Below the pieces are notes generated by a model that saw only the letters and a program-made list of their open reading frames with translations, did no database searches and was not told the origin of the DNA. The position numbers and the translations under genes are program-made. This document shows, piece by piece, positions 3,820 through 51,904 of a DNA stretch of 64,000 bases. The stretch covers positions 215,001 to 279,000 of the forward strand of contig NZ_JAQNDK010000006.1 in NCBI RefSeq assembly GCF_028368935.1. The letters run 5' to 3'. The stretch's first letter is position 1; every line of letters starts with the position of its first letter. The DNA comes from Sorangium aterium. Lineage in GTDB: Bacteria > Myxococcota_A > Polyangia > Polyangiales > Polyangiaceae.

Positions 3820-5325
3820 TCATGTCGCGCCCGCGCGCGGGGTCCCCCAGGCGTGCACGGGCGCGCCGGAGTCGACCTCGGCCATGTACCGCTCCAGCAT
3901 CTTCCTCAGCGCCTCCTCGCGCGACGCGGAGCCCATCTCCAGCGCCGAGAGCGCGCGGAGCTGCCATGTGGCGCCCGTGATGCCTTTGGCGACCCGCGCC
4001 TCGAAGAGCCCGAGATAATGGCGGGCCTCGTCCCCGTCGACCCCCGCGGTCACGAGTCCCTCCTCGACCCGCGGCAAGAGCGAGAGGAGGAGATCGCGCG
4101 CCCGGACGCACCTCGGCGCGGCCCCCGGTACGGCCGGCCAGATGAGCTCGGCGTCGAGGCCGTAGTGCGCCGCATGGTAAAAGTTCCTCACGGCGAGCTC
4201 GAACGGGAACGACGGCAGGAGCTCTCCGATGGAGGGCGCGAGGGCGAGGATGCCCCCGAGCAGGAAGCTCCCGTTCGCGAGCATGTCATCGAGCGTGGGC
4301 CCGGACGGCAAGGCGCGCAGCTCGATCCGCAGGTGGCCGTCGCCGTCCGGATCGTACACCGGTCGATTCCAGTTCCAGACCGTGCCGTGGTGCAGGCGGA
4401 GCTCGTGGAGCTGCGGAATCCCCCCGTCCCGCGCGCAGCCCACGACGTCCTCGTCGCCGCACACGGGGAGGATGGGCTCGTGCAGCGCGACGCTCTCCAT
4501 GAAGAGCTCCGCCGCGCCGTCGCGCACCCAGCCGGTCCCGAAGCCGATGCGGGCCGGCATCTTCCAGTCCGCGCCGGGCGCCGGCGGGCGATCGTCGCCG
4601 GCCTGCTTGAACACCGCCACGCGCGTCTCGTGCCACAGCCGGTGGCCGAGGAAGGTGGGCGAGTTGCACGCGGCCGCGAGCGCGGGCGCGGTCATCATCA
4701 TGGCGGCGTTGAACAGCCGCGCGAAGGCGTCGGGCGTGGCCCGGAGGTGGATCTGAAAGGCGGTGTTCGCCGCCTCCATCGCGGGGTCGTCCGACGTGAG
4801 CTCGAGCGGCTCGGCGCCGTCGATCCGGATATGGAAGGGCGCCTTGCGCAGCCGGCTGAGCCCCGCGGCGAGCGCGCGATACCGGGGCAGGTTGGTGATG
4901 GTCGCAGGGCTGAAGTCGCGCCGCTGGAAGGTCGGCAGGATGCTGACCGGGACCACGCGCGCGCCCCGCGCGGCCGCGCGCTCGCGGATCGCCTCGACGG
5001 TCGCGCGCATCTGCTCGCGGAGCGCCGAGAGCGGCCTGCCGGCGAGCGGCACCGGCTGCGTGCTGAGCTCGATGTCGAACGCGCCCATCTCCGGCGTGAT
5101 CATCGGGCTCGCCGCGGCGCGCGCGATCTCCGCCCCGATCGGCACGGGGCGCGCCTCGCGATCGACGAGGAACATCTCGAGCTCGGTGCCGATCGTCGCT
5201 TCCCCGTGGCCGAACCCCGGCCGCGCGAGCACCATCTCCAGCGCCGCGAGGTTCTGCTGGAGCCGGGTCTTGAAGAGCCGATAATCCACGGTCTTGAAAT
5301 GGTCTTGCTGGATCTCGATGCCCAA
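3820..5325 (-). CDS. Glutamate-cysteine-ligase-like (GCS2 family) amidoligase
   Basis: 501 residues. The GCS2 fold is marked by IGTELEMFLVD (45-55, the G-x-E-x-E metal site), GAFDIELSTQP (81-91), NSPTFLGHRLWHETR (221-235) and RIELRALPSGPT (333-344). Family enzymes use ATP to join a glutamate-like carboxylate to an amine in the cytoplasm. It resembles COG2170-type members rather than canonical glutathione GshA. The start is TTG at 5325, preceded by GGGGAGGT only 3 nt away; no ATG fits. It is the first gene of the operon with the ATP-grasp (7 bp gap) and the class II amidotransferase. Divergent or external promoter signals were not identified. Confidence 0.85.
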   Translation of the reverse strand: MGIEIQQDHFKTVDYRLFKTRLQQNLAALEMVLARPGFGHGEATIGTELEMFLVDREARPVPIGAEIARAAASPMITPEMGAFDIELSTQPVPLAGRPLSALREQMRATVEAIRERAAARGARVVPVSILPTFQRRDFSPATITNLPRYRALAAGLSRLRKAPFHIRIDGAEPLELTSDDPAMEAANTAFQIHLRATPDAFARLFNAAMMMTAPALAAACNSPTFLGHRLWHETRVAVFKQAGDDRPPAPGADWKMPARIGFGTGWVRDGAAELFMESVALHEPILPVCGDEDVVGCARDGGIPQLHELRLHHGTVWNWNRPVYDPDGDGHLRIELRALPSGPTLDDMLANGSFLLGGILALAPSIGELLPSFPFELAVRNFYHAAHYGLDAELIWPAVPGAAPRCVRARDLLLSLLPRVEEGLVTAGVDGDEARHYLGLFEARVAKGITGATWQLRALSALEMGSASREEALRKMLERYMAEVDSGAPVHAWGTPRAGAT

Positions 5326-5624
5326 GGGACCTCCCCTGCGATCCCGGCGAGGGCCCGTCCGCCAGCACGGCGAGCGCCGTGGGCTTCAGGAGAGCTCGCA
5401 GCCGGGAGCGCGATGTTCCCGCGCCCTACGCGCCGCGCAATGCAAGCGCAGGGCCACGGACGGCGGTCTCGGCATGAAGGAAGGCGGAGACGGCCGCCCG
5501 CCGGCGTCGAGCTCGATCGGTGTGGCGTCGATGCAGCCTGTGGCAAAACGCGCCGTGGGCGCTGTGCGAGGGGGTTCCCTGCGTTTCGCGCAGGTGTCGG
5601 GCAGGTTTCACCCTGGGCGCCGGC

Positions 5625-6110
5625 TCATCGGTCGACGTGCGGGACGCGCTCGACCACGCATGCGCCCGCCTTGCAGCGGGCGACCGAGTCTTCCTTCGGC
5701 GCCATGCACTTGGCGACCGGGCAGCTCGCGGCGGCGCAGCTCGCGGCGCGCCACTTCTGGAGCTCCGCGAGCGCATCGCGGTGGAACGCCTGGTTGCACG
5801 GCGGGCACAGCTGGTCGCAGCACTGCCCGGCCTGCGCGCAGGACACCACGCAGTCGGCGTCGGCCTCGCACCGAGCCTCGGACGCCGCGGCGCGCGGTTC
5901 GCCGGCCGCCGGCGGGGGCTCCGCCGCCGGCGAGGTCTCGGCCGCCGGCGGGGCCTGCGACGCGGGTGAGGCCTCGGCCCCCGACGGGGCCTGGGCCCCC
6001 GACGGGGCCTGCGGCGCGGGTTCCTTGGTACAGCCGGCGAGACAGGCGAGGCCGGCGAGGCCGGCGAGCACGAGCGAGCGAGAGGGCAGCGAGATCTTCA
6101 TGCCGGCCAT
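5625..6110 (-). CDS. Cys-rich secreted lipoprotein
   Basis: 161 residues (or 158 from ATG 6101). A signal peptide ends in the lipobox LAGC, giving lipidated Cys27. A Pro/Ala/Glu-rich linker (about 28-76) with imperfect APSGAQ/APSGAE repeats follows. The C-terminal domain has about ten cysteines, including DADCVVSC and QCCDQLCPPC, suggesting several disulfides. This layout (lipobox, low-complexity tether, small Cys-rich head) is common among myxobacterial surface lipoproteins. No enzymatic motif is visible and no ribosome site is strong before either ATG. Confidence 0.72.
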   Translation of the reverse strand: MAGMKISLPSRSLVLAGLAGLACLAGCTKEPAPQAPSGAQAPSGAEASPASQAPPAAETSPAAEPPPAAGEPRAAASEARCEADADCVVSCAQAGQCCDQLCPPCNQAFHRDALAELQKWRAASCAAASCPVAKCMAPKEDSVARCKAGACVVERVPHVDR

Positions 6111-6237: not shown

Positions 6238-7557
6238 TTAGTAGAATGAGAGCGGCTGCCCCGTGGCCTCCACGACGGCCATCCACAGGTCGTCCGTCGG
6301 GTTCACCTGCTTGCGCATGCGGACGGCCAGGGGCATCGGCACGTGCACGAAGCGGCCGTGCCACCGGCCGATCAGCATCTCGGTGTTGCCCGCCATGGCC
6401 GCGTGGACCGCGTTCCGGGCCATGTTCCAGCAATACACGCTGTCCGACGGGGACGCGGGGACGCTGCGGATATGATAGCTCGGGTCCAGGTACTTCAGCG
6501 TCGCCTCGACGCCGCGCGCCCGGAAGTGGGCGTTGATGCGGTCGCGCAGGAAGAGGCCGATGTCCTTCAGCTTGAGGTTGCCGCTGAGGTCCGTCGCCAT
6601 GGGCTCCGCGCTGGAGGTGCAGTGTTCTTGCATGGCGCCCTCGGCGACGACGATCACGGCGTTGCCGTGGCGGGCGAGCCGGCGCTCGAGGTGCGCGAGC
6701 AGCCCGCAGGGGCCGTCGAGCTCCGCGTGGACCTCGGGGATGAGGACCACGTCCACGTCCGCCGACGCGAGCGCCGCCGCGCACGCAATGAAGCCCGAGT
6801 GCCGGCCCATCAGCTTGACGAGGCCGATGCCGTTCTTCGCCCCCGAGGCCTCCACGTGCGCGCTGCGGATGACGTCCACGGCGGCGGCGAAGGCGCTCTC
6901 GAAGCCGAAGCTGCGGTCGATGAACTTGATGTCGTTGTCGATGGTCTTCGGCACGCCGACGACCCCGATCGACAGGCGGCGCTCCTCGATGGCCCGGACG
7001 AGCGACATCGCGCCGCGGATGGTGCCGTCGCCGCCGACGACGAAGAGGACGTTGATGCCGAGGGCCTCGAGGGTGTCCACCATCTGGTGCGGGTCCTGGT
7101 TGCCGCGGGAGGTGCCGAGCACGGTGCCGCCCATGCGGTGGATCTCCTCGACGCTCCGGGGATCCAGGCGCATCGGGGCGTGCCCGAAGCGGGCGACGAG
7201 CCCCTCGTAGCCGTAGCGGAAGCCGAAGATCTCCGGCACGCCATAGCTCTGCGCCATCGTGAGCACGAGGCCGCGGATGACGTTGTTGACGCCGGGGCAG
7301 AGCCCGCCGCACGTCACGATGCCGGCGCGCACCTCCTTCGGATCCCAGAAGACGCGGTTGCGCGGCCCGGCCAGCTCGAACGCAGGCGGCCGCTCGCCGG
7401 AGGCGTCCGCGAGGACGGCGGACAGGCGATCGTTGAACAGCACCTTGTCGGCCTCGCCGACGTACACCGTGGCCTTCTCGCCGAGCTTCTCGGCGACGGG
7501 CGAGGGGTGCCGGCAAGGGCCGAGATCCTTGATGGCGAGGTCGGCAGGGGTCACCAC
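6238..7557 (-). CDS. ATP-dependent 6-phosphofructokinase (plant/actinobacterial-type group)
   Basis: 439 residues from GTG 7557. Motifs: GIVTCGGLCPGVN (Gly-rich nucleotide site), VVGGDGTIRGA (GGDGT, ATP/PPi loop), GVPKTIDND (PKTIDND catalytic motif with the Asp base), LMGRHSGF and IPE (fructose-6-phosphate site). The Gly of GGDGT favours ATP over PPi in classic rules. The enzyme converts fructose-6-phosphate to fructose-1,6-bisphosphate in glycolysis. The frame is open further upstream with an ATG at 7623, but the extra 22 residues look non-conserved, and a strong GGAGG sits 8 nt before GTG 7557. It stands alone, with the 68-bp repeat just past its stop. Confidence 0.88.
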   Translation of the reverse strand: MVTPADLAIKDLGPCRHPSPVAEKLGEKATVYVGEADKVLFNDRLSAVLADASGERPPAFELAGPRNRVFWDPKEVRAGIVTCGGLCPGVNNVIRGLVLTMAQSYGVPEIFGFRYGYEGLVARFGHAPMRLDPRSVEEIHRMGGTVLGTSRGNQDPHQMVDTLEALGINVLFVVGGDGTIRGAMSLVRAIEERRLSIGVVGVPKTIDNDIKFIDRSFGFESAFAAAVDVIRSAHVEASGAKNGIGLVKLMGRHSGFIACAAALASADVDVVLIPEVHAELDGPCGLLAHLERRLARHGNAVIVVAEGAMQEHCTSSAEPMATDLSGNLKLKDIGLFLRDRINAHFRARGVEATLKYLDPSYHIRSVPASPSDSVYCWNMARNAVHAAMAGNTEMLIGRWHGRFVHVPMPLAVRMRKQVNPTDDLWMAVVEATGQPLSFY

Positions 7558-7722
7558 GCGCAATGCCTCCAGGTGGGGAGAACAGCGCCCCTCCGGCGAG
7601 CACCGCCGCGGGGACGCTTCCATCGTCCGACGGCGCCTGTTTCGACCGCTTTTCAGGAGCGATAAGCTATCGTAACGCCGCGCGGTTCCGTTCCCACGCA
7701 AGGCGCCACGAGGGGCAGCGCG

Positions 7723-8637
7723 TTATGCGCAGCTCCCGTTCCTCGTGAACCAGGCCGCTAGCATGTCGAGAAAGACGCGGGTCTTCGGGACGAGCGTGCC
7801 GCCGGGCGGGAAGACGGCGTGGACGTCGAACCCCTGAGGCGTCCACTCCTTCAGGACCTGGACGAGCCGCTTCTTCGAGAGGAACGGGCGGACGAAGTAG
7901 AGGGGCGCTCGAACGATGCCGGCGCCGGCCGCGGCGGCCTGCGCGGCCAGCTCGAAGCTGCCGACGGAGAGGCGCGGGCGCACGGCGATGGATCGCGTCC
8001 TCGAGCCAGCGACGAAGGGCCAATCTTTGGGCCCCTCCTCGCGCGCGACGACGATCGTCTCGTGGTGGCCGAGCTCCTCGGGGCGCGCCGGGACGCCGCG
8101 GCGGTCGAGGTAGCGGGGGCTCGCGTAATAGCCGCCCGTCGCCGTGCCGAGCCGCCGGGCGACCAGCGAGGAGTCGTCGAGCGGGCCGACGCGGATGGCG
8201 AGATCGAAGCCCTCTCGCGCCAGATCGACCCTCCGCGCCGAGGTGTCCAGCTCGACGACGACATCGGGGTAACGGGCCAGGTACGGCGTGATGACGCTCT
8301 CCAGCAGCGCCCCCGCGAGCGCGGACGACGTCGTGATCCGCAGCAGCCCGCTCGGCTTCGACCTGGCCAGCGCGACCACGGCCTCGGCGTCGCGCGCGGC
8401 GGCGAGCGACCTTCGCGCGTGCTCGAAGTACGCGCGCCCTTCGTCGGTCAGGCGCAGGGAGCGCGTCGTCCGGACGAGGAGCGAGACGCCGAGCCGCTGC
8501 TCGAGCTCCTGCACCCGCGCGCTGAGCGTCGCCTTGCGCGCCCGCATCGCGCGGGCAGCCGCGGTGAATCCATTGGCCTCGACGACGGCGACGAAGGCGG
8601 CGAGCTCCTCGAGCGAGCGGCCGGATTGGTACTCCAC
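7723..8637 (-). CDS. LysR-family transcriptional regulator
   Basis: 304 residues from GTG 8637. The N-terminal winged helix-turn-helix (about residues 5-65; FVAVVEANGFTAAARAM, then SARVQELEQRLGVSLLVR) and the effector-binding LysR substrate domain (about 90-300) match the family in order and length. A TTG 36 nt upstream could extend the protein, but that TTGACA is better read as the -35 box. It is divergent from the NmrA-like gene 145 bp away, the standard arrangement for a LysR regulator and its target, so control of that gene is likely. The inducer is unknown. Confidence 0.9.
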   Translation of the reverse strand: MEYQSGRSLEELAAFVAVVEANGFTAAARAMRARKATLSARVQELEQRLGVSLLVRTTRSLRLTDEGRAYFEHARRSLAAARDAEAVVALARSKPSGLLRITTSSALAGALLESVITPYLARYPDVVVELDTSARRVDLAREGFDLAIRVGPLDDSSLVARRLGTATGGYYASPRYLDRRGVPARPEELGHHETIVVAREEGPKDWPFVAGSRTRSIAVRPRLSVGSFELAAQAAAAGAGIVRAPLYFVRPFLSKKRLVQVLKEWTPQGFDVHAVFPPGGTLVPKTRVFLDMLAAWFTRNGSCA

Positions 8638-8644
8638 GCGTTCC

Positions 8645-8679
8645 AGTCTGGCGCCGATGTGGCCTATTGTCAAAAAGGC
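8645..8679 (-). promoter_or_regulatory. Candidate lysR promoter with overlapping inverted-repeat operator
   Basis: Read on the minus strand, TTGACA (8673-8668) is followed after 17 nt by CAGACT (8650-8645), a possible -35/-10 pair placing transcription start close to GTG 8637. GCCT (8662-8665) and AGGC (8676-8679) form an inverted repeat with a 10-nt AT-rich core covering the -35 box. That is close to, but not exactly, the LysR T-N11-A site, and is consistent with autoregulation. Confidence 0.4.
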
Positions 8680-8781
8680 TGCCTGCCCGCATCGTGAGGT
8701 TGCACGGGCGCTCGGGCGCCGCGTGACGCTGCGAGGCGCGCCTCGAGCGCGCCGAGACTAGCTATCAGGAAGGAACCACCC

Positions 8782-9636
8782 ATGATTCTCGTGACGGGAG
8801 CCGGAGGGACTGTCGGAGGCGCCCTCCTCGATGAGCTGAAGTCGATGGGCGTGAAGCCCCGCGTCGCCCACCGCTCCAGCGACAAGGCCGAGAGGGCGAA
8901 GGCCGCGGGGCACGACGCCGTCCTCCTCGACTTCGCGAAGCCGGAGACGCTGCGGCCGGCGCTCGATGGTGTCGATGCCGTGTTTCTGCTGGGGTCCGGC
9001 GGCGCCGGGCAGATCGAAGCGGAGATCCGGGTCGTCGAAGAGGCCAGGGTCGCCGGGGTGAAGAGGCTCGTGAAGCTGTCGGTCTGGGGCGCCGCGGGCG
9101 AGGCGTACTCGTTCGCGAAGATCCATCGCCCGATCGAGCGCGCGGTGGAGGCGTCGGGTCTCGCCTGGACGTTCCTCAGGCCGAACGGCTTCATGCAGAA
9201 TTTCGTGACCTACATGGCGGATTCGATCAGGGCGCAGGGCGCCTTCTACCTGCCCGCGGCGGACGCGAAGATCAGCCATATCGACGTGCGCGACATCGCG
9301 CGGGTCGCGGCGCTGGCGCTGACGACCTCGGGCCATGAAGGCAAGGCATACGAGCTCTCGGGTCCGCGGGCGTTCTCTTACAGCGAGGCGGCGGACATCC
9401 TCTCTCGCGTGCTCGGCAAGGAGGTGCATTATGTGGCGGTGTCCGACGAGGCGGCGAAGGCCGGTATGGTCGCCGGCGGTATTCCCGATCTCTATGCCGA
9501 TGCGATGATCGACCTCAACCGGCTCTACCGGAGCGGCGCCGGCGCCGGCGTGACCTCGGCGGTGAAGGACGTCACCGGGCGCGAGCCGATCGACTTCGAG
9601 CGGTTCGCCGTGGATCACGCGGCGGCGCTCCGCTGA
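8782..9636 (+). CDS. NmrA-like atypical short-chain NAD(P)-binding protein
   Basis: 284 residues. The N-terminal Rossmann motif VTGAGGTVGG fits the G-x-x-G-x-x-G of atypical SDR/NmrA proteins. VFLLGSGG, KLSVWG and LRPNGFMQN (substrate-pocket region) follow the pattern of NAD(P)H:quinone-oxidoreductase-2-like or redox-sensing NmrA members. The Tyr-x-x-x-Lys pair of classical SDRs is not obvious, so it may be a reductase or a nucleotide sensor. ATG 8782 has AGGAAGGA about 8 nt before it. The divergent LysR gene is the likely regulator. It converges with the lipoprotein gene that ends at 9670. Confidence 0.85.
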   Translation: MILVTGAGGTVGGALLDELKSMGVKPRVAHRSSDKAERAKAAGHDAVLLDFAKPETLRPALDGVDAVFLLGSGGAGQIEAEIRVVEEARVAGVKRLVKLSVWGAAGEAYSFAKIHRPIERAVEASGLAWTFLRPNGFMQNFVTYMADSIRAQGAFYLPAADAKISHIDVRDIARVAALALTTSGHEGKAYELSGPRAFSYSEAADILSRVLGKEVHYVAVSDEAAKAGMVAGGIPDLYADAMIDLNRLYRSGAGAGVTSAVKDVTGREPIDFERFAVDHAAALR

Positions 9637-9669
9637 GGTGGCGCGCTTCGAGCGTCCGGTGCTCTGGAT

Positions 9670-10506
9670 CTAGAATTCAGCCATCAGCCCTATCGACGGG
9701 TAGACGATGAAGCTGTCGAGATCGAGCGCGACCGTCCGCTGACCGAGCACCGTGAGCTCACCGCTCGAGAAGATCTCCGCCATCGTCAGCTCGAAGCCGA
9801 AGAATACGTGTTTATAGCCGAGCGCGACGCCGGCCTGGCCGCCCACGTAGAAGCCGGTGCCGGAGAACGACGCGAGCTCCCGCTCGCCCGGATAGCCGGT
9901 GAAGGCGGGCAGGTCCAGGACGAGCGACGTGCCGAAGGTCGTGAACATCAGGCGCGGGCCGCCCCAGACCCGGTACCATGTGCCCGCCTTCCCGATCTGG
10001 ATGGGCAGGTCGACCTGCCATCGCGTGAAGTCCTCCAGCTCGACGATGCCAAGGATGCTCCCGACAGGGAACTCCATCACGTAGCGCCCGATGCCTGCGC
10101 CGGCCGTCAGATCGACGCCGTGCTCGTCGCTCTTCAGGAGCTGGTAGCGGGTGCCCAGGCGGAACGCGCTGCCAGTATACCGGAGGTTGAGCTCCCAGCG
10201 GTCGAGCGCGGTGTAGCCGATGCCGATGTGCGGCGTGACCGAGGGCGGGTTCAACGCGAGCGCGCCGCCCGCCTCGAAGAGCGCCTGCCGCTCGGCCTCG
10301 GACAGCTCCCGTGACTCCGCGACGTCCGCCAGCACGACGCCGGCGTCCACCATCGACGCGAGCGCGCCGGTCGGGATCGAGACGTCGAGCCCGAGCTCGG
10401 CCTGGACATGGCCTTTCTTGGCCACATGGGCAGGCTGGAACGTGGAGAGCGCCGGCGCGCAGCCGCAGGTCCACAGGGCGAGCACGGCGAGGGTGCGAGG
10501 AAGCAT
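9670..10506 (-). CDS. Outer-membrane beta-barrel-like lipoprotein, unknown function
   Basis: 278 residues. An N-terminal hydrophobic stretch ends at CGC (Cys14/Cys16), a plausible lipobox. The rest alternates polar and hydrophobic residues in strand-like segments (GIGYTALDRWELNLRYTG, GFYVGGQAGVALGYKH) and ends in Phe, the usual last residue of an outer-membrane barrel. No named family is recognised. It is monocistronic and convergent with the NmrA-like gene. Confidence 0.65.
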   Translation of the reverse strand: MLPRTLAVLALWTCGCAPALSTFQPAHVAKKGHVQAELGLDVSIPTGALASMVDAGVVLADVAESRELSEAERQALFEAGGALALNPPSVTPHIGIGYTALDRWELNLRYTGSAFRLGTRYQLLKSDEHGVDLTAGAGIGRYVMEFPVGSILGIVELEDFTRWQVDLPIQIGKAGTWYRVWGGPRLMFTTFGTSLVLDLPAFTGYPGERELASFSGTGFYVGGQAGVALGYKHVFFGFELTMAEIFSSGELTVLGQRTVALDLDSFIVYPSIGLMAEF

Positions 10507-30043: not shown

Positions 30044-30465
30044 CGTGCGCAGACGACGACGACGCGAAGCCGTGACCCCGGCGCCGCCGGGGCTCGGTCG
30101 CAGCGCCTGAACGCGCCGCTGCCCGCCGAACTAGCACAGGAGGGCACGCTGGCCTGATAGGTCGGCCGGACCAGCCCCATCGCGGGAAGCAGAAGGCCCA
30201 CCATCCGCCCTGCGTGCCACCGCGCAACACCACACCGTCGGAGCATGCCTACCTCGCATCATGGGGACGAGCAGACAGTCGCGCCCCTCGGCGCAAGAGC
30301 GATATCGGCCCGAACGGCGCGCTCTGGATCGTCACTCCGCGCTCGGTTGCCCGCGTGGCTGAGGGAGGGTGGCGGGTCTATCAGCGGCCCGCGCGACCGC
30401 CGAAGCCCGCGCTGCGCAGGTGCAGCACGGGCAGCGCGGCCGGCTGCCTGGTAAACTCGCAGGCG

Positions 30466-31194
30466 ATGGAACTCACGCCCGCCTTCACTTATCCCGCGCA
30501 GGTGCCCGTGCTGCTGCGCCAGCAGGGCTATGCGGTGCTCAGCCCGCAGGGCGTCGCCGAGCTCACGGGCTGCGACCTGGGCGAGCTGCATGCGCTGCGG
30601 CCCTCCTGGGACGACCTGCCGCCGGACCGCTACCTCAAGGACGGCGGGCGCTACCGCAGCCGGCGGCACTCGTGCTTCGTGGTCGAAGGCGGCGCGGTGC
30701 GCCAGGCGCCGCGTCGCGCGCACTGGCAGCCCGTCGAATACAACGCGCTGCACGGCGGCATGCAGCGGTGGTTCGAGCCGATGCAGCCGCAGGTGGTGGA
30801 TCCGCCCGCCTGGGCGCGCCTGCTGCGTGCGCTCGGGCAGGTCGCTTCCGGCCGCAAGGGCGAGCAGCCCTGGTTCGTCGAGGCGCACCAGTTCCGCATC
30901 GATACGCAAGGGGGGATCGGCCGCCCCACGCCGGAAGGCGCGCACCGCGACGGCGTGGATCTCGTGGCGGTGTTCCTCGTCGGGCGTGAGGGCATCAAGG
31001 GTGGCGAGACGCGTGTCTTCCAGGCGGACGGGCCCGCAGGCCAGCGATTCACGCTCACCGAGCCGTGGAGCCTGCTGTTGCTGGACGACGAGCGCGTGAT
31101 CCACGAGACGACGCCCATCCAGCCCGCCGGCGAGCTCGGCCATCGCGACACGCTGGTGCTGACGTACCGCGCGGGCGGCTTCCAGGGCGCCTGA
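30466..31194 (+). CDS. 2OG-Fe(II) dioxygenase family protein (DUF2257 / amino-acid hydroxylase-like)
   Basis: 242 residues. The facial triad is visible as His160-x-Asp162 (AHRDGVDLVAVFLV) and His213 (VIHETTPI), with Arg235 in TLVLTYR as the likely 2-oxoglutarate carboxylate ligand. The size and the motif spacing match the 2OG-Fe_dioxy family that includes L-isoleucine 4-hydroxylase. It likely hydroxylates a free amino acid or similar small molecule. ATG 30466 has only a weak purine stretch upstream. Leucine codons favour CTG, and the gene sits alone between repeat DNA and a gene fragment, so horizontal arrival is plausible though unproven. Confidence 0.85.
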   Translation: MELTPAFTYPAQVPVLLRQQGYAVLSPQGVAELTGCDLGELHALRPSWDDLPPDRYLKDGGRYRSRRHSCFVVEGGAVRQAPRRAHWQPVEYNALHGGMQRWFEPMQPQVVDPPAWARLLRALGQVASGRKGEQPWFVEAHQFRIDTQGGIGRPTPEGAHRDGVDLVAVFLVGREGIKGGETRVFQADGPAGQRFTLTEPWSLLLLDDERVIHETTPIQPAGELGHRDTLVLTYRAGGFQGA

Positions 31195-34110: not shown

Positions 34111-37050
34111 TCAGCGCCCCTGGACCTCGAAGTTGGTCACGCCCCAGCCCTCATCGAAGAGGCCGGTCAGCCCAGCCGCGGACAGGTCGAGCGCGAGGTC
34201 GGGCGCGGAGTGCGGGAAGACCAGCTTCATGCGGTACACGGAGTCGCCGTACGGATAGGCGAGGGTGTTCACCTCGCGCGCTCCCGAGCCGGCCAGGCTC
34301 CCGTCCAGCGGATAGCTCTGGGAGCTCATGGTGTTGGAGAAGGTCCCGCTGAGCAGCTCGACGCCGTCCGCGGACGCGGTCCAGACGCTGGGGCCAAGGG
34401 GACCATCGCCATCCCAAGCGTTGACGAGGTAGAGGTCGAAGCTGACGGTCAGCTCGGTGTGGGGGGCGAGATCGTTGAGCGTCAGGTTCGCCGTCTCGTT
34501 GCCGAACTGCCCCAGGAAGGTGCGGTCTCCGAGCGGGATCACGCTGGTGACGATGGACTCCCACTCCGGGCCGATGGATCCGGTGAAGTTGTTGAAGTAG
34601 ACGCTGCGGGGGCTGTTGATGAGCGGCCCGCCCTGCCCGTGGTTCGCGAGATCCGTGGCGGTCTGCTGGGCCGAGGCGGCGAAGCTCGGGTCGCCGGTGA
34701 GGCCCACGTCGAGGATGCACGTCTGCTTGATGGCCTCGTCGGTGATGCCGGCGCAGGCCAGCTCGCCCGCGGCCCTCTGCGCGGGGGTCAGGTCGTTGAG
34801 CCACACCGGCTGCGCGGTGCCGGCCGGATTGCCGCACGGCGTGCCCTGATGGATGAGCGCGACGTCGCCCTGCGCGGCGTCCACCCGCCAGACGTCCGCG
34901 TAGCTGTTCGTGTCCTGGTACATCTCGAAGAACGTCAGCGCGCTGCTCAGCGCGCTGCCGTCCCGGGCCATCATGAACTCGTTGGTGGGGTCGTTATCGG
35001 CGTTCCCGAAGAGGCCGAGCATCCTGCCCACGCTGGCCTGCGGGACGAGGAAGAGCGTGTCCAGGTACAAGCCGAGGGCATAGCTCCTCGGATACATCGC
35101 CAGCCGCTCTCCCGTCGGCCAGGCCAGCACGGTCCTGCCGCTCGCGGACCGGTAGACGCTCCCGCCGCCGGCGAGCGCGAGCGCGCCGCTCGACGGCACC
35201 ACCGTCGGTTGCCCGTTCAGGTAGAACGCGCCGTTCACATGGAACTCCACGAGATCGCCCGCGATGCGCGCGCCCACGGCCCGGCCGGTCGAGATGCCCG
35301 GCGACACAGGGCACTGCCGGATCTGGATCTCCAGATCGGGAGTGGCCGCGCTGGTCGCCAACACGAAGTCGCCCTCCCCCTGGAAGTCGAAGGCGACACG
35401 ATCGAAGCTGACGTAATGGGGGTCTCCGTTGCAGCTGGCAGCCTTGCACGAATCCGAGGTGTCCACGCGGCACCCCTTCATGACCTTGACGAGGAGGGCG
35501 TCGCTACCACCGCCGCCGAAGGAGTGACCGCAGAACGGCGCGTCCGTCCTGCCCGTCAGGAAGACGTTGCCCCTCGGATCGACGGCGACGCCTTGCGCCG
35601 CCTCTGTCGCGTCCGTGCCGATGTACTCGGTGCGCAGGTGTGCCCCCGCCGCGCTGTACTCGCGCAGGTACATGTCCTCGCTCCCGAGGGACGCGTCGGA
35701 GTCGAGGTCGCGGGAGGTCTGGCCGGTCAACACGACAGATCCACCGACGACGGCCACCGACGTAGCGGAGACGTTCTCGCTCGCCGCTGTCTGCCGGATC
35801 CATTGCGTGGTGAGGCTCGCGTCCAGCTTGGCGAGGAAGGCGTCATACTTCGTCGAAGAGGCATAAGAGGGGAAGTTCCCGTTGGTCGTGCCGGAGACGT
35901 AGACGACGGTCTGACCCGACTCCACCGCAGTGGTCAGGCTGAACGCCTGGTCTTGGAGGTTCGTTCCGAGGAGCGCCACCCCGCCCAGAGCACCGCTGTC
36001 GCTGTAGCGGGCGACAAAGGCGTCAGCGCTGCCGCCCGCGTACGGCTGGCCTGCCAGCGCGCCGGTGGTGTAACCGGCGACGTAGACCTGCCCATCGGCT
36101 CCGACGGACACGCTGCGCGCGATGGTCGTCTTGTTGTTCACTCCGAGCTGCCTGGTCCAGACGAGATTGCCGCTCGCCGAATACTTCGCCACGAACAGCG
36201 ACGTGGTGCCGTTCGTCGGCGGCGGGTTCACCCCGGCGAGATTCCCGCCTGTGGAGCCCACCACGTAGACGCTGCCGTCTGGTGCGTGGGCCACAGACCA
36301 CGCTTGATCCACCGCAGCCGTACCGAGCTGGCGCCGCCACGCCTCGGTCCCGTTTGCGTTCAGCTTGACGAGGAAGGCGTCCGAAGATCCCTTGTGCTGG
36401 CCGCCCTCGATCGCGCCGCTCGTGTGGCCGACCACGTAGAGCGGCTCGTTGCCGCTCGCGGGGCACTGGGCCGAGGAGACGGCGACGCCCGTCGCCTGGT
36501 CGTTCGCCGACGTGCCGATCTGCGCGCCCCACACTAGTTTCCCGTCCTGCCCGACCTTGCGGATGAAGGCGTCACTCGCGCCGCTGTTCACCTCGCCCGA
36601 GATGGCCCCGGTGGTGGACCCGACCTCGTAGACGGCGTCGCAGGACGCGGCGACCGCGTTCCCGAGATCCGCGCCGGTCGTGGGCGTCTCGTCATGCCAC
36701 GTGAATCCCTCGAAGCTGGGGCAGGTCACGTTCTGCAAGGGGAGCGGGAGGCCCTTCAGGCGATCCCCCCCCATGGGGTCGAACGGGAGCGTGGACAGGG
36801 GGGAGTCGTCCTCCTTGGGCCTCAGCTCCTCCTCGGTCGCGCTGGTATCTTCGTTCAGCTCTCCGGCGGGCGCGAGATCATCCCCCTCCGCTCCGGAGCC
36901 GTCGTCCCCGGAGGAGATCGGCGCAGCCTGGTCGGGCTGGGGGCCTCTCGTCGAGCCCACCGGCAGAGGATCGCCGGTCGAGCCGCTGCAAGCGGCGACG
37001 CCTGCTGCCAGGATGCACACGGAAAGCGTCTCACAATGAAATCGTTTCAT
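34111..37050 (-). CDS. SBBP beta-propeller / von Willebrand type D lipoprotein
   Basis: 979 residues. Lipobox VAAC puts lipid on Cys21. After an acidic linker come about eight SBBP-type repeats of 50 residues (recurring YVVGxTxGxxxG, DAFxxKxxxxG and W-x-x-Q-x-G-T blocks; about 130-535), expected to form a beta-propeller. A vWF type D-like domain follows (CNGDPHYVSFDRVAFDFQGE near 544, GxFGNADNDPTNEF near 690). The C-terminal beta-sandwich (about 830-979) includes SVYFNNFTG. Probably a large surface-exposed adhesion or matrix protein. ATG 37050 has GAGG 9 nt upstream. Monocistronic. Confidence 0.85.
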   Translation of the reverse strand: MKRFHCETLSVCILAAGVAACSGSTGDPLPVGSTRGPQPDQAAPISSGDDGSGAEGDDLAPAGELNEDTSATEEELRPKEDDSPLSTLPFDPMGGDRLKGLPLPLQNVTCPSFEGFTWHDETPTTGADLGNAVAASCDAVYEVGSTTGAISGEVNSGASDAFIRKVGQDGKLVWGAQIGTSANDQATGVAVSSAQCPASGNEPLYVVGHTSGAIEGGQHKGSSDAFLVKLNANGTEAWRRQLGTAAVDQAWSVAHAPDGSVYVVGSTGGNLAGVNPPPTNGTTSLFVAKYSASGNLVWTRQLGVNNKTTIARSVSVGADGQVYVAGYTTGALAGQPYAGGSADAFVARYSDSGALGGVALLGTNLQDQAFSLTTAVESGQTVVYVSGTTNGNFPSYASSTKYDAFLAKLDASLTTQWIRQTAASENVSATSVAVVGGSVVLTGQTSRDLDSDASLGSEDMYLREYSAAGAHLRTEYIGTDATEAAQGVAVDPRGNVFLTGRTDAPFCGHSFGGGGSDALLVKVMKGCRVDTSDSCKAASCNGDPHYVSFDRVAFDFQGEGDFVLATSAATPDLEIQIRQCPVSPGISTGRAVGARIAGDLVEFHVNGAFYLNGQPTVVPSSGALALAGGGSVYRSASGRTVLAWPTGERLAMYPRSYALGLYLDTLFLVPQASVGRMLGLFGNADNDPTNEFMMARDGSALSSALTFFEMYQDTNSYADVWRVDAAQGDVALIHQGTPCGNPAGTAQPVWLNDLTPAQRAAGELACAGITDEAIKQTCILDVGLTGDPSFAASAQQTATDLANHGQGGPLINSPRSVYFNNFTGSIGPEWESIVTSVIPLGDRTFLGQFGNETANLTLNDLAPHTELTVSFDLYLVNAWDGDGPLGPSVWTASADGVELLSGTFSNTMSSQSYPLDGSLAGSGAREVNTLAYPYGDSVYRMKLVFPHSAPDLALDLSAAGLTGLFDEGWGVTNFEVQGR

Positions 37051-39682: not shown

Positions 39683-40900
39683 CTAGAAGCGGACGTGCAG
39701 CGCCGTCATCCCGCGGAGCTTGGTGTTGGGCCCCCATGTCGGCTCCGGGGTCGCGAGCTCGAGCCGCGGCAGCCGGCGCAGCAGCACCGAGAAGGCGATC
39801 TCGAGCTCGGTGATGGCAAACAAAGACCCGAGGCACGCATGCGTGCCCCGGGCGAACACCAGGTGCGGGTTGTGCTTCCGCGTGATGTCCAGCCGGTCCG
39901 GCTCCGGAAACACCTCGGGGTCGCGGTTGACGGCGCTCAGCACGACGGACAGCCGATCCCCCTTGCGGATCAGCTTGCCCCCGAGCTCGAGATCCGTGAG
40001 CGCCCAGCGCTCCACGCCCCGCTGTACAGGCGACGCGTAGCGAAGCAGCTCCTCGACGGCGCTCTGCATCAGCTCCGGGTGGGCTCGAAGCAGCGTCAGC
40101 TGATCGGGATGCGAGAGCAAGGTGTACACGCCAGCCGAGATCATCCGGGCCGTCGTTTCGAAGCCGGCGTAGAAGAGCAAGCTGAGGTTCGACAAGAGCT
40201 CCGGAAACGCGAGCCGATCGCCGTGGTCCTCGGCGGAGAGCAGCGCGCTGATCAGATCGGCGCCCGGGCGCACCTGCCGCTCGGCGATCCATCGGCTCAG
40301 GTACTCTCGCGCGGCGCCATCGGCGGCTTCGCCCTGCTGTCGCACCGCCGGCGGTTGAGCCTGATCGAACTGCAGATGAATTCCGGGCATCCACGCGCGA
40401 AGTAGCTCTCGCTCCGATGCCGGCAAGCCCATCAGCTCACAGAGCACGTTCGTCGGCAGGGGATACGCGTAGTCGGCCATGATGTCCATGTGCCCGTCCC
40501 CCTCGACGCGATCCACGAGCTCATGCGCGACCTGCTCGATCCTCGACCGGAGGCGCTGGATCGCCTCGCGCGTGAGCACCTTGCCGACGAGGGAACGCAC
40601 CCGGTCATGCTCGGGTGGATCCAGCTCTATCATGTTCTGGGCCCACGGGCATGATCCGGAGGTGTGGCGCGGGGGGAAGGCCATGAGCTTTTCACGTTGT
40701 GTGGTCAAGCGCCTGTCGGCCAGGACGAGCTTCGCGTAGGAATATTTCGTGATCCACCATTCCCCTACCGAAGCGACGAAATGGACCGGCGCTTCCGCCC
40801 GGAGGCGTGCATAGAGCGGGTAGGGGTCCGCCACGAAGGCAGGATCCAGCGCTTCGAAGCTGTCGACTGACCATTCCTTGTGCGTGACCGCGGATGTCAT
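39683..40900 (-). CDS. Cytochrome P450, second of a tandem pair
   Basis: 405 residues. Helix-I motif YAGFETT (244-250), E-x-x-R in AVEELLRY (281-288), and the heme loop VFARGTHACLG with Cys near 356 identify a bacterial class I P450 of CYP107-like length. The first Gly of the usual FGxG heme loop is Ala. ATG 40900 overlaps the stop of the first P450 in an ATGA, so translation is coupled; the GGAGGAAG in the upstream gene's end is its ribosome site. By eye the two P450s are well over 80% identical. Redox partners are not in the window. It ends the four-gene oxidative operon. Confidence 0.93.
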   Translation of the reverse strand: MTSAVTHKEWSVDSFEALDPAFVADPYPLYARLRAEAPVHFVASVGEWWITKYSYAKLVLADRRLTTQREKLMAFPPRHTSGSCPWAQNMIELDPPEHDRVRSLVGKVLTREAIQRLRSRIEQVAHELVDRVEGDGHMDIMADYAYPLPTNVLCELMGLPASERELLRAWMPGIHLQFDQAQPPAVRQQGEAADGAAREYLSRWIAERQVRPGADLISALLSAEDHGDRLAFPELLSNLSLLFYAGFETTARMISAGVYTLLSHPDQLTLLRAHPELMQSAVEELLRYASPVQRGVERWALTDLELGGKLIRKGDRLSVVLSAVNRDPEVFPEPDRLDITRKHNPHLVFARGTHACLGSLFAITELEIAFSVLLRRLPRLELATPEPTWGPNTKLRGMTALHVRF

Positions 40901-42132
40901 CTTCTTCCTCCGGCCTGGAAACGGACGTGCAGCGCCGCCATCCCGCGGAGCTTGGTGTTGGGCTCCCATGTCGGCGCCGGGGTCGCGAGCTCGAGCCGCG
41001 GCAGCCGGCGCAGCAGCACCGAGAAGGCGATCTCGAGCTCGGTGATGGCGAGGAAGGAGCCCAGGCACGCGTGCGTGCCCCGGGCGAACACCAGGTGCGG
41101 GTTGTGCTTCCGCGTGATGTCCAGCCGATCGGGCTCCGCAAACACCTCGGGGTCGCGGTTGGCGGCGCCCAGCACGATGGATAGCCGATCCCCCTTGTGG
41201 ATCAGCTTGCCCCCGAGCTCGAGATCCGTGAGCGCCCACCGCTCCATCCCTCGCTGCCCGGGCGACGTGTAGCGCAGCAGCTCCTCGACGGCCGTCTGCG
41301 TCAGCTCCGGGTGGCCTCGAAGCAGCGTCAGCTGATCGGGATGCGAGAGCAAGGTGTACACGCCAGCCGAGATCATCCGGGCCGTCGTCTCGAAGCCGGC
41401 GTAGAGGAAGAACGTGAGGTTCGACAAGAGCTCCGGGAGCGCGAGCCGATCGCCGTGGTCGTCGGCAGAGAGCAGCGCGCTGATCAGATCGGCGCCCGGG
41501 CGCACCTGCCGCTCGGAGATCACCCTGCTCAGGTACTCTCGCGCGGCGTCATAGGCCTCTTCACCCTGCTGCCGCACCTCCGGCGGTTGAGCCTGGTCGA
41601 ACTTCAGATGAATCCGGGTCGTCCACGCGCGAAATTGCTCTCGCTCCGATGCCGGCAAGCCCATCAGCTCGCAGAGCACGAACGTCGGCAAGGGATACGC
41701 GTAGTCGGCCACGACGTCCATCCGCCCGTCCCCCTCGACGAGGTCCACGAGCTCGTGCGCGATCTCCTCGATCCTCGACCGGAGGCGCTGGACCACCTCG
41801 CGCGTGAACGCCTTGCCGACGAGGGCGCGCACCCGGTCATGCTCCGGCGGATCCAGCTCCATCATGTTCGGGGTCCATGGGCAGGATCCGGAGCCGCGGC
41901 GCGGGACGACGGCCATGACCTTTTCACGTTGTGTCGTCAAGCGCCTGTCGGCCAGGGCGAGCTTCGCGTAGGAATACTTCGTGATCCACCATTCCCCTAC
42001 CGAGGCGACGAAATGGACCGGCGCTTCCGCCCGGAGGCGCGCGTAGAACGGGTAGGGGTCCGCCACGAAGGCGGGATCCAGCGCGTCGAAGCTGTCCACT
42101 GAGCATTCCTTGTGCGTGACCGCGGATGTCAT
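40897..42132 (-). CDS. Cytochrome P450, first of a tandem pair
   Basis: 411 residues from ATG 42132, with CAGGAG 8 nt upstream. AGFETT (245-250), ExxR (E283-R287) and FARGTHACLG with heme Cys356 mark a bacterial P450. It probably hydroxylates or desaturates the small-molecule product of the operon. The nearest relative is its own neighbour: differences are scattered substitutions, denser around 70-90 and 165-200 (B-C loop and F-G region, which line the substrate pocket), hinting at changed substrate position. It lies 75 bp after the Rieske gene, same strand. Confidence 0.93.
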   Translation of the reverse strand: MTSAVTHKECSVDSFDALDPAFVADPYPFYARLRAEAPVHFVASVGEWWITKYSYAKLALADRRLTTQREKVMAVVPRRGSGSCPWTPNMMELDPPEHDRVRALVGKAFTREVVQRLRSRIEEIAHELVDLVEGDGRMDVVADYAYPLPTFVLCELMGLPASEREQFRAWTTRIHLKFDQAQPPEVRQQGEEAYDAAREYLSRVISERQVRPGADLISALLSADDHGDRLALPELLSNLTFFLYAGFETTARMISAGVYTLLSHPDQLTLLRGHPELTQTAVEELLRYTSPGQRGMERWALTDLELGGKLIHKGDRLSIVLGAANRDPEVFAEPDRLDITRKHNPHLVFARGTHACLGSFLAITELEIAFSVLLRRLPRLELATPAPTWEPNTKLRGMAALHVRFQAGGRR

Positions 42133-42207
42133 CGTCTTGCTCCTGATTCCTCCTGATCCACCGGCGACCGAGCTCCGGAGCCGGTGCGTGCCGGTGGACA
42201 CGCGCGT

Positions 42208-43335
42208 TCACCTCGCGAGGAAGTCGTCGAGCGCGCGGTGAAACCGGATGGGCCCGAGCTCGAAGCGGCCGAACGTGACGACCTGGTTCGCGCCGGAGCG
42301 CAGCCCGCTCTGGATCGACGTCACCCTCCTGAAGTCTTCGTCCAGTGTCGTCTCGAAGCTCTCTCTGTCTGCTCTTGTATGGCGCACCTCGCGCTCCGTC
42401 TGCGGGACGCGGGCGGCGCTCGCCCACGTGCGCCAGAGCGTCCGATCCAGGCTGCTCGGAAACACCGTCTGGAGAATGGTCGGCCCTTCTCGTAGCATGA
42501 GGACGGTATTGGGAAATATCAGATAGACGACATTCGCGACGGAGAGGAGATCCCAGCTCGCTGGATCGCGGTCCAGGCACGCGTTGATCCTGTTTCTGGG
42601 GACGATCATGCGCTGGTGGGGATAGAAGTCGTCATGCAAGGCGATATTGTCGTGCAACCAGGGTGCGATCGTCTGCGCGTGCGTCTTCCGGAAGTGATAG
42701 ACCTCGAATGCCACTTCCATGAGGAGCTTCCAGTTCGCGTTGGGCGAGAAGGTGAGCTGATATGCCGGCTGGAGGCGCGAGAGGTTCCAGCCGGCGAGCT
42801 CTTGCGCGAGGGGACCCAGAAAAGCGTCCAGATCCGGCCCAGGATCGGTCCACACCATGCCGAACTTCACCCGCACAGGGAACGGGGTGAGCGCGGTGCG
42901 TTCGCAATGCCCCTCGGCAAAGCCGTAGGCGTGCGGGACGTGCAGCAGCTTGCCATCGAGCCCATAGGTCCATCCGTGGAAAGGGCACGTGAAGGAGCTC
43001 CGGGCGACGCCCGTCGGGCCGTCGAGGAGCCGGGCACCTCGGTGGCGACAGACGTTCAAGAACCCCCTGATCTGGCCCTCCTTGTCGACGCAAAGCAGGA
43101 TCGGCGCGCCCAGCCCGTCGTGGGTGACGTAATCGCCCGGCCTTTGCAGGAGCGCCGCGCTCGTCAGGACGATGGGGTAGCGCTGGAACAGCTGCCCTCG
43201 CTCCCTCTCGAGCCGCGTCGGTGACGTGTAGATGTCCACCGGCCTCTGCTCCGGCTCCGCGTCCATGTCCGTGGTCCGCCGCTGGATCAGATCGAGCGTG
43301 CGCCGTATCAGCGTCACCTGCTCCGCATGCTTCAT
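42208..43335 (-). CDS. Rieske non-heme iron oxygenase, alpha-type subunit
   Basis: 375 residues. The Rieske cluster is Cys96-x-His98 (CRHRG) and Cys117-x-x-His120 (CPFHGWTY). The catalytic iron site is the EVYHFRKTH segment (His214, His219) with an acidic residue expected near the C-terminus. Such enzymes do O2-dependent hydroxylation, N-oxygenation or demethylation and need a reductase, which is not in the window. ATG 43335 lacks a clear ribosome site. It sits 130 bp after the aminotransferase-like gene and 75 bp before the P450 pair, all minus strand. Confidence 0.92.
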   Translation of the reverse strand: MKHAEQVTLIRRTLDLIQRRTTDMDAEPEQRPVDIYTSPTRLERERGQLFQRYPIVLTSAALLQRPGDYVTHDGLGAPILLCVDKEGQIRGFLNVCRHRGARLLDGPTGVARSSFTCPFHGWTYGLDGKLLHVPHAYGFAEGHCERTALTPFPVRVKFGMVWTDPGPDLDAFLGPLAQELAGWNLSRLQPAYQLTFSPNANWKLLMEVAFEVYHFRKTHAQTIAPWLHDNIALHDDFYPHQRMIVPRNRINACLDRDPASWDLLSVANVVYLIFPNTVLMLREGPTILQTVFPSSLDRTLWRTWASAARVPQTEREVRHTRADRESFETTLDEDFRRVTSIQSGLRSGANQVVTFGRFELGPIRFHRALDDFLAR

Positions 43336-43465: not shown

Positions 43466-44674
43466 CTAAGCAAGCTCCGAGAGCTCGACCTGGCGCACCG
43501 CCGGCGCCGCCGTCATGGAGGGCTCCTCCCTGCGGCGCGGGCTCATCAGGGCGTCGAGCTGCTCGATGAAGCAGCTGTTCTCCGCCGGCAGGCCGACGGT
43601 CACGCGGAAGTATTCATCGTATCGCTCGTCGCCGAACGGCTCGAAGGCCTTCACCTTCACGCCTCGGGCGAGCAGCGCGTCGTGGATCTTCGCCCCGGAC
43701 CACGCCCCGCGCGCGCGGCACAGGATGAAGTTGGTCTGTGACGGATAGGCCTCCAGAGCGCGATGAGCTCCGATGGCTGCCATCAGCCTGGCTCGCTCCC
43801 TCGCTGTCTGATGCCGGACGAATCCGAGGTGTCCGCTGTCCTGGAGCGACGCCATCGCGAGCTCCGCGGCCAGCTGCCCGACGCGGTGCGGCGTCATCTT
43901 GGCCTCCATCTGCGCCACCACCTTCGCGTTCCCCATGGCGTACCCCACGCGCACCGACGCGAGCCCGTAGGCGAAGGAGAAGCTGCGCAGCACCATCAGG
44001 TTGGGATGGCGCAGCACCAGGTCCGCCATCCGGGTGTTCGGGCTCTCCTCGAGATAGTGCACGTAGGCTTCGTCGATGAAGAAGAGGGATTTCGGGAACC
44101 GGGTGAGCAGCGGACCGAGCTCCTGCCTCGTGATGAGGACGTTGCCCGTGGGGTTGTTGGGGTTGCAGAGGTAAACCAGGCCGTCCTGCCGCGAGAGGCG
44201 CGACTCGAGCATGTTCATGTCGAGCGCGAAGCCGTTCTCCGGGCAGAGCGGGAGCAGCTCGCATCGCAGCCCCACGCGGACACCGGAGGCAGGCACCTTG
44301 GAGTAGGTGAGCCGCGTGGTGATGATGGGATACGCCGTGCGCTTCAGCAAGAAGCGCAGCGTTCGCATCGCCGAACGCTTGATCTCGCGCTCGATCAGGA
44401 ACGGGATGCAGGTCTTGAGCAGCGGGCCGCTCCCGTTGGCGACCAGCACGTTCTCCGGCCTGACGCCCGCGTCCGCGGCGAGCGCGCGCCGGAGATCTCC
44501 GTTGTCTCCGGCCGGGTAGCTCCGCAGCGAGATGTTGCCGGCGTGGCGCCGCAGGACGTCCGCGCACCGCTCGGAACAGTACGTGCCGTGGTTCAGCGCC
44601 ATGTCGATGGGCGGCGCGCCGGACCGGCGAACCGGGGCGATGGGTGCGTTGCTCGCTGTCGTTCGAGGCTGCAT
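43466..44674 (-). CDS. Aminotransferase-fold (class I/II, HisC-like) protein lacking the PLP lysine
   Basis: 402 residues. The fold-type I pattern is clear: NGSGPLLK (80-87), NPNNPTGN (171-178, cofactor-ring Asn region), FIDEAYVHY (199-207, Asp201/Tyr204) and a C-terminal YFRVTVGLP with the substrate-carboxylate Arg. Where relatives have S-x-S-K-A-x-G-L-A-G-x-R, this protein has SFSFAYGLASVRVGYA, so the Schiff-base Lys is Phe234 (codon TTC). Histidinol-phosphate-type transamination is therefore not expected. It may bind a ligand, act as a partner or use a different mechanism. ATG 44674 has GGGAGGAG 8 nt upstream. First gene of the operon. Confidence 0.85.
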   Translation of the reverse strand: MQPRTTASNAPIAPVRRSGAPPIDMALNHGTYCSERCADVLRRHAGNISLRSYPAGDNGDLRRALAADAGVRPENVLVANGSGPLLKTCIPFLIEREIKRSAMRTLRFLLKRTAYPIITTRLTYSKVPASGVRVGLRCELLPLCPENGFALDMNMLESRLSRQDGLVYLCNPNNPTGNVLITRQELGPLLTRFPKSLFFIDEAYVHYLEESPNTRMADLVLRHPNLMVLRSFSFAYGLASVRVGYAMGNAKVVAQMEAKMTPHRVGQLAAELAMASLQDSGHLGFVRHQTARERARLMAAIGAHRALEAYPSQTNFILCRARGAWSGAKIHDALLARGVKVKAFEPFGDERYDEYFRVTVGLPAENSCFIEQLDALMSPRRREEPSMTAAPAVRQVELSELA

Positions 44675-45095: not shown

Positions 45096-45473
45096 TCACG
45101 GACTGATCGCTGTCCCGACTGTCGCGTTCCCGACTGTCCCCGTCGTCGCCTTGACGCCCGGGGTTTGTCGCACGGCCTTCCAGTGGCAATAGCACAGGTA
45201 CGGCGGGTTGATGCGACACTCGAACCTGTCGATGCAGTACGGAGAGAGCCCCCAGCAGTCTGACGACAGCGTTCCACCCTCGCACGTGCAGCTTCCGTCT
45301 TCGCTGCACCACCAGCTGAGCGAACCAGTGCCCCCACCGTTGTTCACGAGCGCCTCTGTCACGGCCGTCGTCTCCTCCGGAGTGGTCGCTTCTTCGGGGG
45401 CTACGACGCAGCCGGCCAGGAGGCCGGAGGCAAGAGACAAGACGGCGAGCGCGGCGCGAAGGGTATTCTTCAT
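45096..45473 (-). CDS. Small Cys-rich lipoprotein
   Basis: 125 residues. The signal peptide ends in LLAGC (Cys22). A Thr/Glu-rich linker leads to a compact Cys-rich region (WWCSEDGSCTCEGG, SSDCWGLSPYCIDRFECR, YLCYCHWK) with eight or more cysteines and many aromatics. It resembles small disulfide-rich secreted myxobacterial lipoproteins; function unknown. ATG 45473 has AAGGAG 8 nt upstream. Confidence 0.75.
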   Translation of the reverse strand: MKNTLRAALAVLSLASGLLAGCVVAPEEATTPEETTAVTEALVNNGGGTGSLSWWCSEDGSCTCEGGTLSSDCWGLSPYCIDRFECRINPPYLCYCHWKAVRQTPGVKATTGTVGNATVGTAISP

Positions 45474-51343: not shown

Positions 51344-51904
51344 TCACGCGTCCTCCGACGGCGGCGGCAGGCCCGGCAGGCCGTCGATGCTCGTCGTGTT
51401 CTTCTCCAGCCGATAGCGCGAGAGGCCCTCCGGCCCCTTGCGCTCCGCCCACTTCGACAGCGTCTCCCGCTCGCCCTCGTAGGCCATGCGCGGCACGGCG
51501 TAGCCGCACGACGTGGCGACGCGCTCGAGCTCGACGCGGATCACCGAGCGGACGCCCTGGAACGGCGGGAAGAGGTCCGCCAGCGCGCCGAAGCGCGGGT
51601 CGCCGGGGAAGACGGGCTCGCCGCGGCCCTGGAGGCGCAGGATGCGGGGCGGGCCGTCGAACGCGCAGAACATCAGCGTGATGCGGCCATTGTCGCGCAG
51701 GTGCGCGATGGTCTCGACGCCGCTGCCGGTCAGGTCGAGGTAGGCCACGGTCCGCGGGTCGAGCACGCGGAAGGTGTCGTGCCCCTTCGGCGACAGGTTG
51801 ACGTGCCCGCCGCTGCCCGAGGGGGCGGAGGCCACGAAGAAGAGGCGCTGCTCGGCGAGGAAGCCGATGAGGTCGTCGTCCAGCTCGGAGAAGGTTCGTC
51901 CCAT
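51344..51904 (-). CDS. Pyridoxamine 5'-phosphate-oxidase-family flavoprotein
   Basis: 186 residues with the split-barrel FMN-binding pattern: FFVASAPSGSGGHVNLSPKG, VAYLDLTGSGVETIAHL, RITLMFCAF and RILRLQGRG. Stand-alone members of this group reduce or bind small molecules with FMN or F420; it is not the vitamin B6 enzyme itself. ATG 51904 has GAGGA 5 nt upstream. Its 3' end abuts the MBL gene convergently, so the pair may form overlapping antisense transcripts. Confidence 0.85.
   Translation of the reverse strand: MGRTFSELDDDLIGFLAEQRLFFVASAPSGSGGHVNLSPKGHDTFRVLDPRTVAYLDLTGSGVETIAHLRDNGRITLMFCAFDGPPRILRLQGRGEPVFPGDPRFGALADLFPPFQGVRSVIRVELERVATSCGYAVPRMAYEGERETLSKWAERKGPEGLSRYRLEKNTTSIDGLPGLPPPSEDA

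Follow-up and report, generated by a model that had tools for sequence, protein, structure and literature searches.

A Myxococcota clade of HisC/CobD-like proteins with phenylalanine at the Schiff-base lysine position

In the genome of the soil bacterium Sorangium aterium, we found a HisC/CobD-like fold-type-I protein that has lost the Schiff-base lysine and carries phenylalanine (Phe234) in its place. The same residue is found in 23 distinct relatives from Myxococcota (24 of 24 with the query), and Lys is found in all 91 other homologs aligned; among the 114 aligned rows, 23 have Phe, 91 have Lys, and none has any other residue at this position. We regard the existence of this Lys-less clade as almost certain, and it represents a distinct functional clade of HisC/CobD-like proteins in which the Schiff-base lysine has been permanently lost. 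Fold-type-I proteins without the lysine were already known, and what is new is a discrete clade of them within the HisC-like branch; phrase searches of the open-access literature returned no title or abstract on the clade, which is weak evidence of absence. The gene and its features are listed in Table 1, with positions counted in the 64,000-nucleotide stretch of DNA that was analyzed (hereafter, the window).

The only Pfam match of the protein is Aminotran_1_2 (PF00155; E-value 3.3e-33), with a profile score of 115.8 bits, above the gathering cut-off of 19.7. The best NCBIfam model is hisC (TIGR01141), at 197.1 bits and below its cut-off of 276.55, and the score for the CobD model (TIGR01140) is likewise below the curated cut-off (153.4 vs. 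290.55 bits). The AlphaFold2 model (pLDDT 90.7, pTM 0.88) matched best, among solved structures, the plant HisC HISN6 (8bj1; Z 40.4, 333 residues, rmsd 2.5, 26% identity), and CobD (1lkc) was matched with a Z of 38.5.

Table 1. Features of the Lys-less gene and of its downstream neighbors in the window.
Feature	Position	Strand	Evidence or conservation
HisC/CobD-like fold-type-I protein without Schiff-base lysine, 402 aa	43466..44674	−	PF00155, hisC model, AlphaFold2, 8bj1 match
F234 (codon TTC) at Schiff-base lysine position	43973..43975	−	Phe 24/24 in family, Lys 91/91 in other homologs
K126, sole strictly invariant lysine of the family	44297..44299	−	Lys in 23/23 family rows
Y124, ring-stacking aromatic	44303..44305	−	Tyr 23/23; equivalent to Tyr127/Phe110 in PMC4703992
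NPNNPTG (171-177), including cofactor-pocket N174 and P175	44144..44164	−	N174 and P175 invariant
DEAY (201-204), including cofactor-pocket D201 and Y204	44063..44074	−	both invariant
R242, expected cofactor-phosphate binder	43949..43951	−	22/23; equivalent to Arg240 of Mtb HisC
K342, at the Arg337/Arg322 substrate-anchor position	43649..43651	−	Lys in 20, Arg in 3 of 23 family rows
R357, expected substrate-phosphate/carboxylate anchor	43604..43606	−	23/23; equivalent to Arg346/Arg330
Family-specific insert, ~20 residues (about 96-115), extra helix 102-111	44330..44389	−	helix in model
Rieske non-haem oxygenase, probable operon partner in the Sorangium aterium genome only	42208..43335	−	PF00355, PF00848
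Cytochrome P450, downstream	40897..42201	−	PF00067
Second P450, tandem duplicate, 85% identical	39686..40912	−	PF00067; tblastn

The motif around the Schiff-base position in the open reading frame reads ...VLRSFSFAYGLASVRVGYA..., and the lysine that forms the internal aldimine with PLP in this fold type is replaced by Phe234. The original prediction had placed Phe at the Schiff-base position within 43971-43982; the codon falls inside this interval, and the reading holds for every family member. Because TTC differs from both AAA and AAG at all three bases, a single read error cannot explain Phe234. In addition, the frame stays open for all 402 codons and its coding periodicity is strong (GC3-GC2 of 0.43), and the family is under purifying selection, with dN/dS values (NG86) of 0.07-0.45 in nine pairs. 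Phe is encoded by TTC in 20 and by TTT in four of the 24 members, and the relatives come from separate assemblies. A sequencing error and a pseudogene were rejected on the basis of the three substitutions and the purifying selection, and a mutation private to the window was rejected since relatives carry Phe as well. We found no evidence in support of an artifact or a decaying gene, and the chance of either appears to be close to nil.

Family members were collected mainly through whole-protein searches. Among 377 genomes of the phylum, 19 had a match at E ≤ 1e-50, with the genome of S. aterium itself among them, and the 18 relatives obtained in this way (37-48% identity) all have Phe at the site. 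A first scan of genome contigs found no relative; a pattern scan of genome contigs added at least L025 (62% identity) and L027, although this route is biased by the inclusion of the Phe motif in one of its two patterns. Searches of relatives and of one family brought in L105 (67%), L106, and L152; L106 is the same locus as L028, and L026 lies on the same contig as L015. The family is sharply delimited, as members score 479-591 bits against the family profile, the next proteins score at most 179 bits, and the gap between them is empty. At E ≤ 1e-42, no family match was found in 247 genomes of the G403 phylum, reached via an Acidobacteriales locus, or in 349 genomes of the G405 phylum, reached via a Lysobacter locus, both searches being run without a positive control, and none of eight single genomes of other groups had a family-level match. 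The family is therefore likely confined to Myxococcota. Within Sorangium, the gene is absent from five other genomes of the genus at E ≤ 1e-50, which indicates that it is accessory in the genus.

In the phylogenetic tree, a single branch (SH-aLRT 100) sets the Phe proteins apart; their stem measures 1.71 changes per column, and the query clusters with L105 and L025. The clade persists after removal of the long rows L141, L006, and L004, of the insert, and of columns 126 and 234. The changes to F234 and K126 occurred on the same stem, and thus the pairing of the two residues counts as one event and not as independent proof.

Despite the loss of the lysine, the residues expected to hold the cofactor are retained. 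Residues were mapped using alignments and the Mtb HisC/ArAT paper (PMC4703992). The PF00155 cofactor-shell residues other than the lysine are all present (G81, Y124, N174, P175, D201, Y204, R242, and G244), and together with Y53 and R357 (substrate anchor) they make up a cofactor and substrate shell of ten named positions that is kept in the family. Nine of these are strictly invariant, compared with 41 of the 357 columns overall (hypergeometric p 1.4e-8), and the tenth, R242, is conserved in 22 of 23 rows. The shell in the Lys-less clade is thus undecayed, but it shows no special preservation relative to working Lys-type enzymes, which conserve it too. At the position equivalent to K342, 78 of the 91 Lys-type homologs have Arg. 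The NPNNPTG and DEAY motifs that the original prediction described as retained are indeed present in the translated open reading frame, and its suggestion that cofactor or ligand binding could persist fits with the conservation of the cofactor-holding residues.

It was also proposed that the site alone had changed, and this does not hold, as the clade also has an insert of ~20 residues, a remodeled substrate pocket, and a new invariant lysine, K126. Within the family the insert includes the conserved residues S101 (23/23) and R104 (22/23), and all 91 Lys-type homologs have a gap at these two positions. The phosphate loop of the clade contains G83-P84, two positions that most Lys-type proteins fill with a polar residue and then Glu or Asp, and R264 is found at a dimer-contact loop in 21 of 23 family rows. 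K126 stands two residues past the ring-stacking Tyr, and none of the 91 Lys-type homologs has Lys at the equivalent position. As described in PMC4703992, the equivalent residues Met129 of Mtb HisC and Leu112 of Mtb ArAT line the substrate pocket; as judged from the alignment, K126 occupies a substrate-pocket position. The search for a compensating pocket lysine suggested by the original prediction has thus yielded an invariant residue, placed in the pocket by alignment, that is a candidate for a lysine within bonding distance of C4′ of PLP.

The neighborhood of the gene varies among family members. In the window, the Rieske oxygenase gene and then the two tandem P450 genes lie downstream of the Lys-less gene, all in the same orientation as it. 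The Rieske gene is unmatched at E ≤ 1e-60 in five other Sorangium genomes and in G394, so an operon conserved in relatives was rejected; one 34% relative of the oxygenase is present in G389. It looks as if the Lys-less gene has been recruited into an accessory Rieske/P450 operon in the S. aterium genome. The tandem P450 pair (39686-42201, minus strand; 85% protein identity) likely reflects a recent duplication. Directly upstream of the Lys-less gene is an open reading frame for a 125-aa Cys-rich lipoprotein-like protein without a Pfam match (45096-45473, minus strand), and a PNPOx_N (pyridoxamine-5′-phosphate oxidase-like) protein is encoded about 6.7 kb away (51344-51904, minus strand). Other genes in the window encode a 2OG-Fe_Oxy_2 dioxygenase (30214-31194, plus strand), which we take to be a possible amino-acid hydroxylase, and a protein of 979 aa that combines beta-propeller (SBBP) repeats with a von Willebrand type D domain (34111-37050, minus strand).

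Among the 23 relatives' loci, some of which are short or ended by the contig and several of which come from related genomes, genes for a PlsC-like acyltransferase (7/23), a GlpD-like dehydrogenase (6/23), and an HpnA/OleD-like SDR (4/23) recur, with at least one of the three near 13 of the 23; the reference neighbors were picked for adjacency, and these counts stand without a chance baseline. The 67% ortholog adjoins a GNAT gene, for which the best NCBIfam match is OlsB (44 bits vs. a cut-off of 350). No neighbor is common to all of the relatives' loci, and assigning a function from conserved neighbors was rejected for this reason. The relatives' neighbors nonetheless hint at lipid or glycerol-phosphate metabolism as the setting, whereas the window copy's own neighbors are oxygenases and not lipid genes. 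At two of these loci, other genes were observed: in L107, a B12-binding radical SAM gene (4516-6051, minus strand), BchE/HpnJ-like but below the cut-offs, overlaps the Lys-less open frame by a few bases, and in L025, a gene beside the 62% ortholog encodes a protein of 1145 aa in which an NADP-binding domain is fused to a class-III aminotransferase and DUF6206 (6284-9721, minus strand).

Compared with known systems, the protein shares the fold, the cofactor shell, and the substrate-phosphate anchor with HisC (HISN6 8bj1; Mtb 4r8d), but differs in lacking the Schiff-base Lys, in the insert at 96-115, in K126, in having GSGP for GSxE/D, and in a hisC score below the cut-off. L-threonine-O-3-phosphate decarboxylase (CobD, 1lkc) has the same fold and is matched by its sequence model, below the cut-off, and unlike CobD the family has no Schiff-base Lys. 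The sugar 3-dehydratases ColD, E1, and SpnQ belong to the sugar aminotransferase branch. According to PMC8987622, they are natural fold-type-I enzymes that lack the Lys and use PMP, with an acid/base His at the Lys position; this His is not found in the Lys-less protein, which has Phe in a HisC-like context. Two further cases share a Lys-less PLP fold with the family, although they belong to other subfamilies. SPT1/LCB1, of the alpha-oxoamine synthases, is the subunit of eukaryotic serine palmitoyltransferase that lacks the lysine, and SPT activity is described as requiring SPT1 beside the Lys-bearing SPT2 (PMC6148460). The desulfurase-like Rv3778c is judged likely non-catalytic in PMC12910592.

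We consider it most likely, at about even confidence, that the family consists of enzymes that bind PLP or PMP but do not form the usual internal aldimine, K126 being the putative active-site amine. The cofactor would be held non-covalently, or via K126 instead of residue 234, and K126 would form a Schiff base with the cofactor or with a carbonyl substrate, or act in acid/base catalysis; alternatively, K126 could play a role in plain anion binding. The substrate would bear a phosphate or a similar anion, and, judging from the relatives' gene neighbors, lipid or glycerol-phosphate metabolism is the probable context. A more specific version, which we consider unlikely, is a relocated catalytic lysine: with Lys changed to Phe, the internal aldimine or acid/base role would have moved to K126, on the loop past the stacking Tyr, possibly for work on a keto substrate resembling glycerol phosphate, as part of a Myxococcota lipid pathway.

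The main rival, which we hold somewhat less likely, is a conserved pseudoenzyme: the family would bind a phosphorylated metabolite or a B6 vitamer without chemistry, and its role would be that of a sensor, a carrier, or a partner in regulation. The complete loss of the Lys across the clade and the retention of the shell, as needed for ligand binding, are consistent with such a role, and both SPT1 without its PLP lysine and Rv3778c, judged non-catalytic for the same reason, provide precedents (PMC6148460; PMC12910592). However, the entire substrate anchor and the new pocket Lys are invariant too, and no second HisC-type gene occurs in any examined locus, so that no neighboring heterodimer partner is seen there; a partner may be encoded at a distance, as paralogs are present elsewhere in the genome. 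An enzyme free of B6, in which the pocket would hold another phosphorylated ligand and a carbonyl substrate would itself be bound by K126 as a Schiff base, in the manner of class-I aldolases, would make use of the invariant pocket lysine and the phosphate anchors and would suit the GlpD neighbors at six of the 23 loci, but the pyridine-ring residues D201, Y204, Y124, and N174 are kept in 23 of 23 rows and would be unneeded without B6, which makes this reading rather improbable. The site itself has neither Lys nor His, but the family retains the pyridine-ring contacts, the phosphate cup, and the substrate anchor, and a new invariant lysine has appeared in the pocket. We rate the B6-binding enzyme somewhat above both of these alternatives.

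Overall, profile-based annotation would tend to label the proteins of this family as aminotransferases, and such labels call for caution. B6 enzymes are defined by the Schiff-base lysine, and a clade with a fixed Phe, with the other named cofactor contacts kept, and with a new invariant lysine in the substrate pocket provides a direct test, set up by nature, of whether such proteins can do without the internal aldimine or can shift it to another residue.
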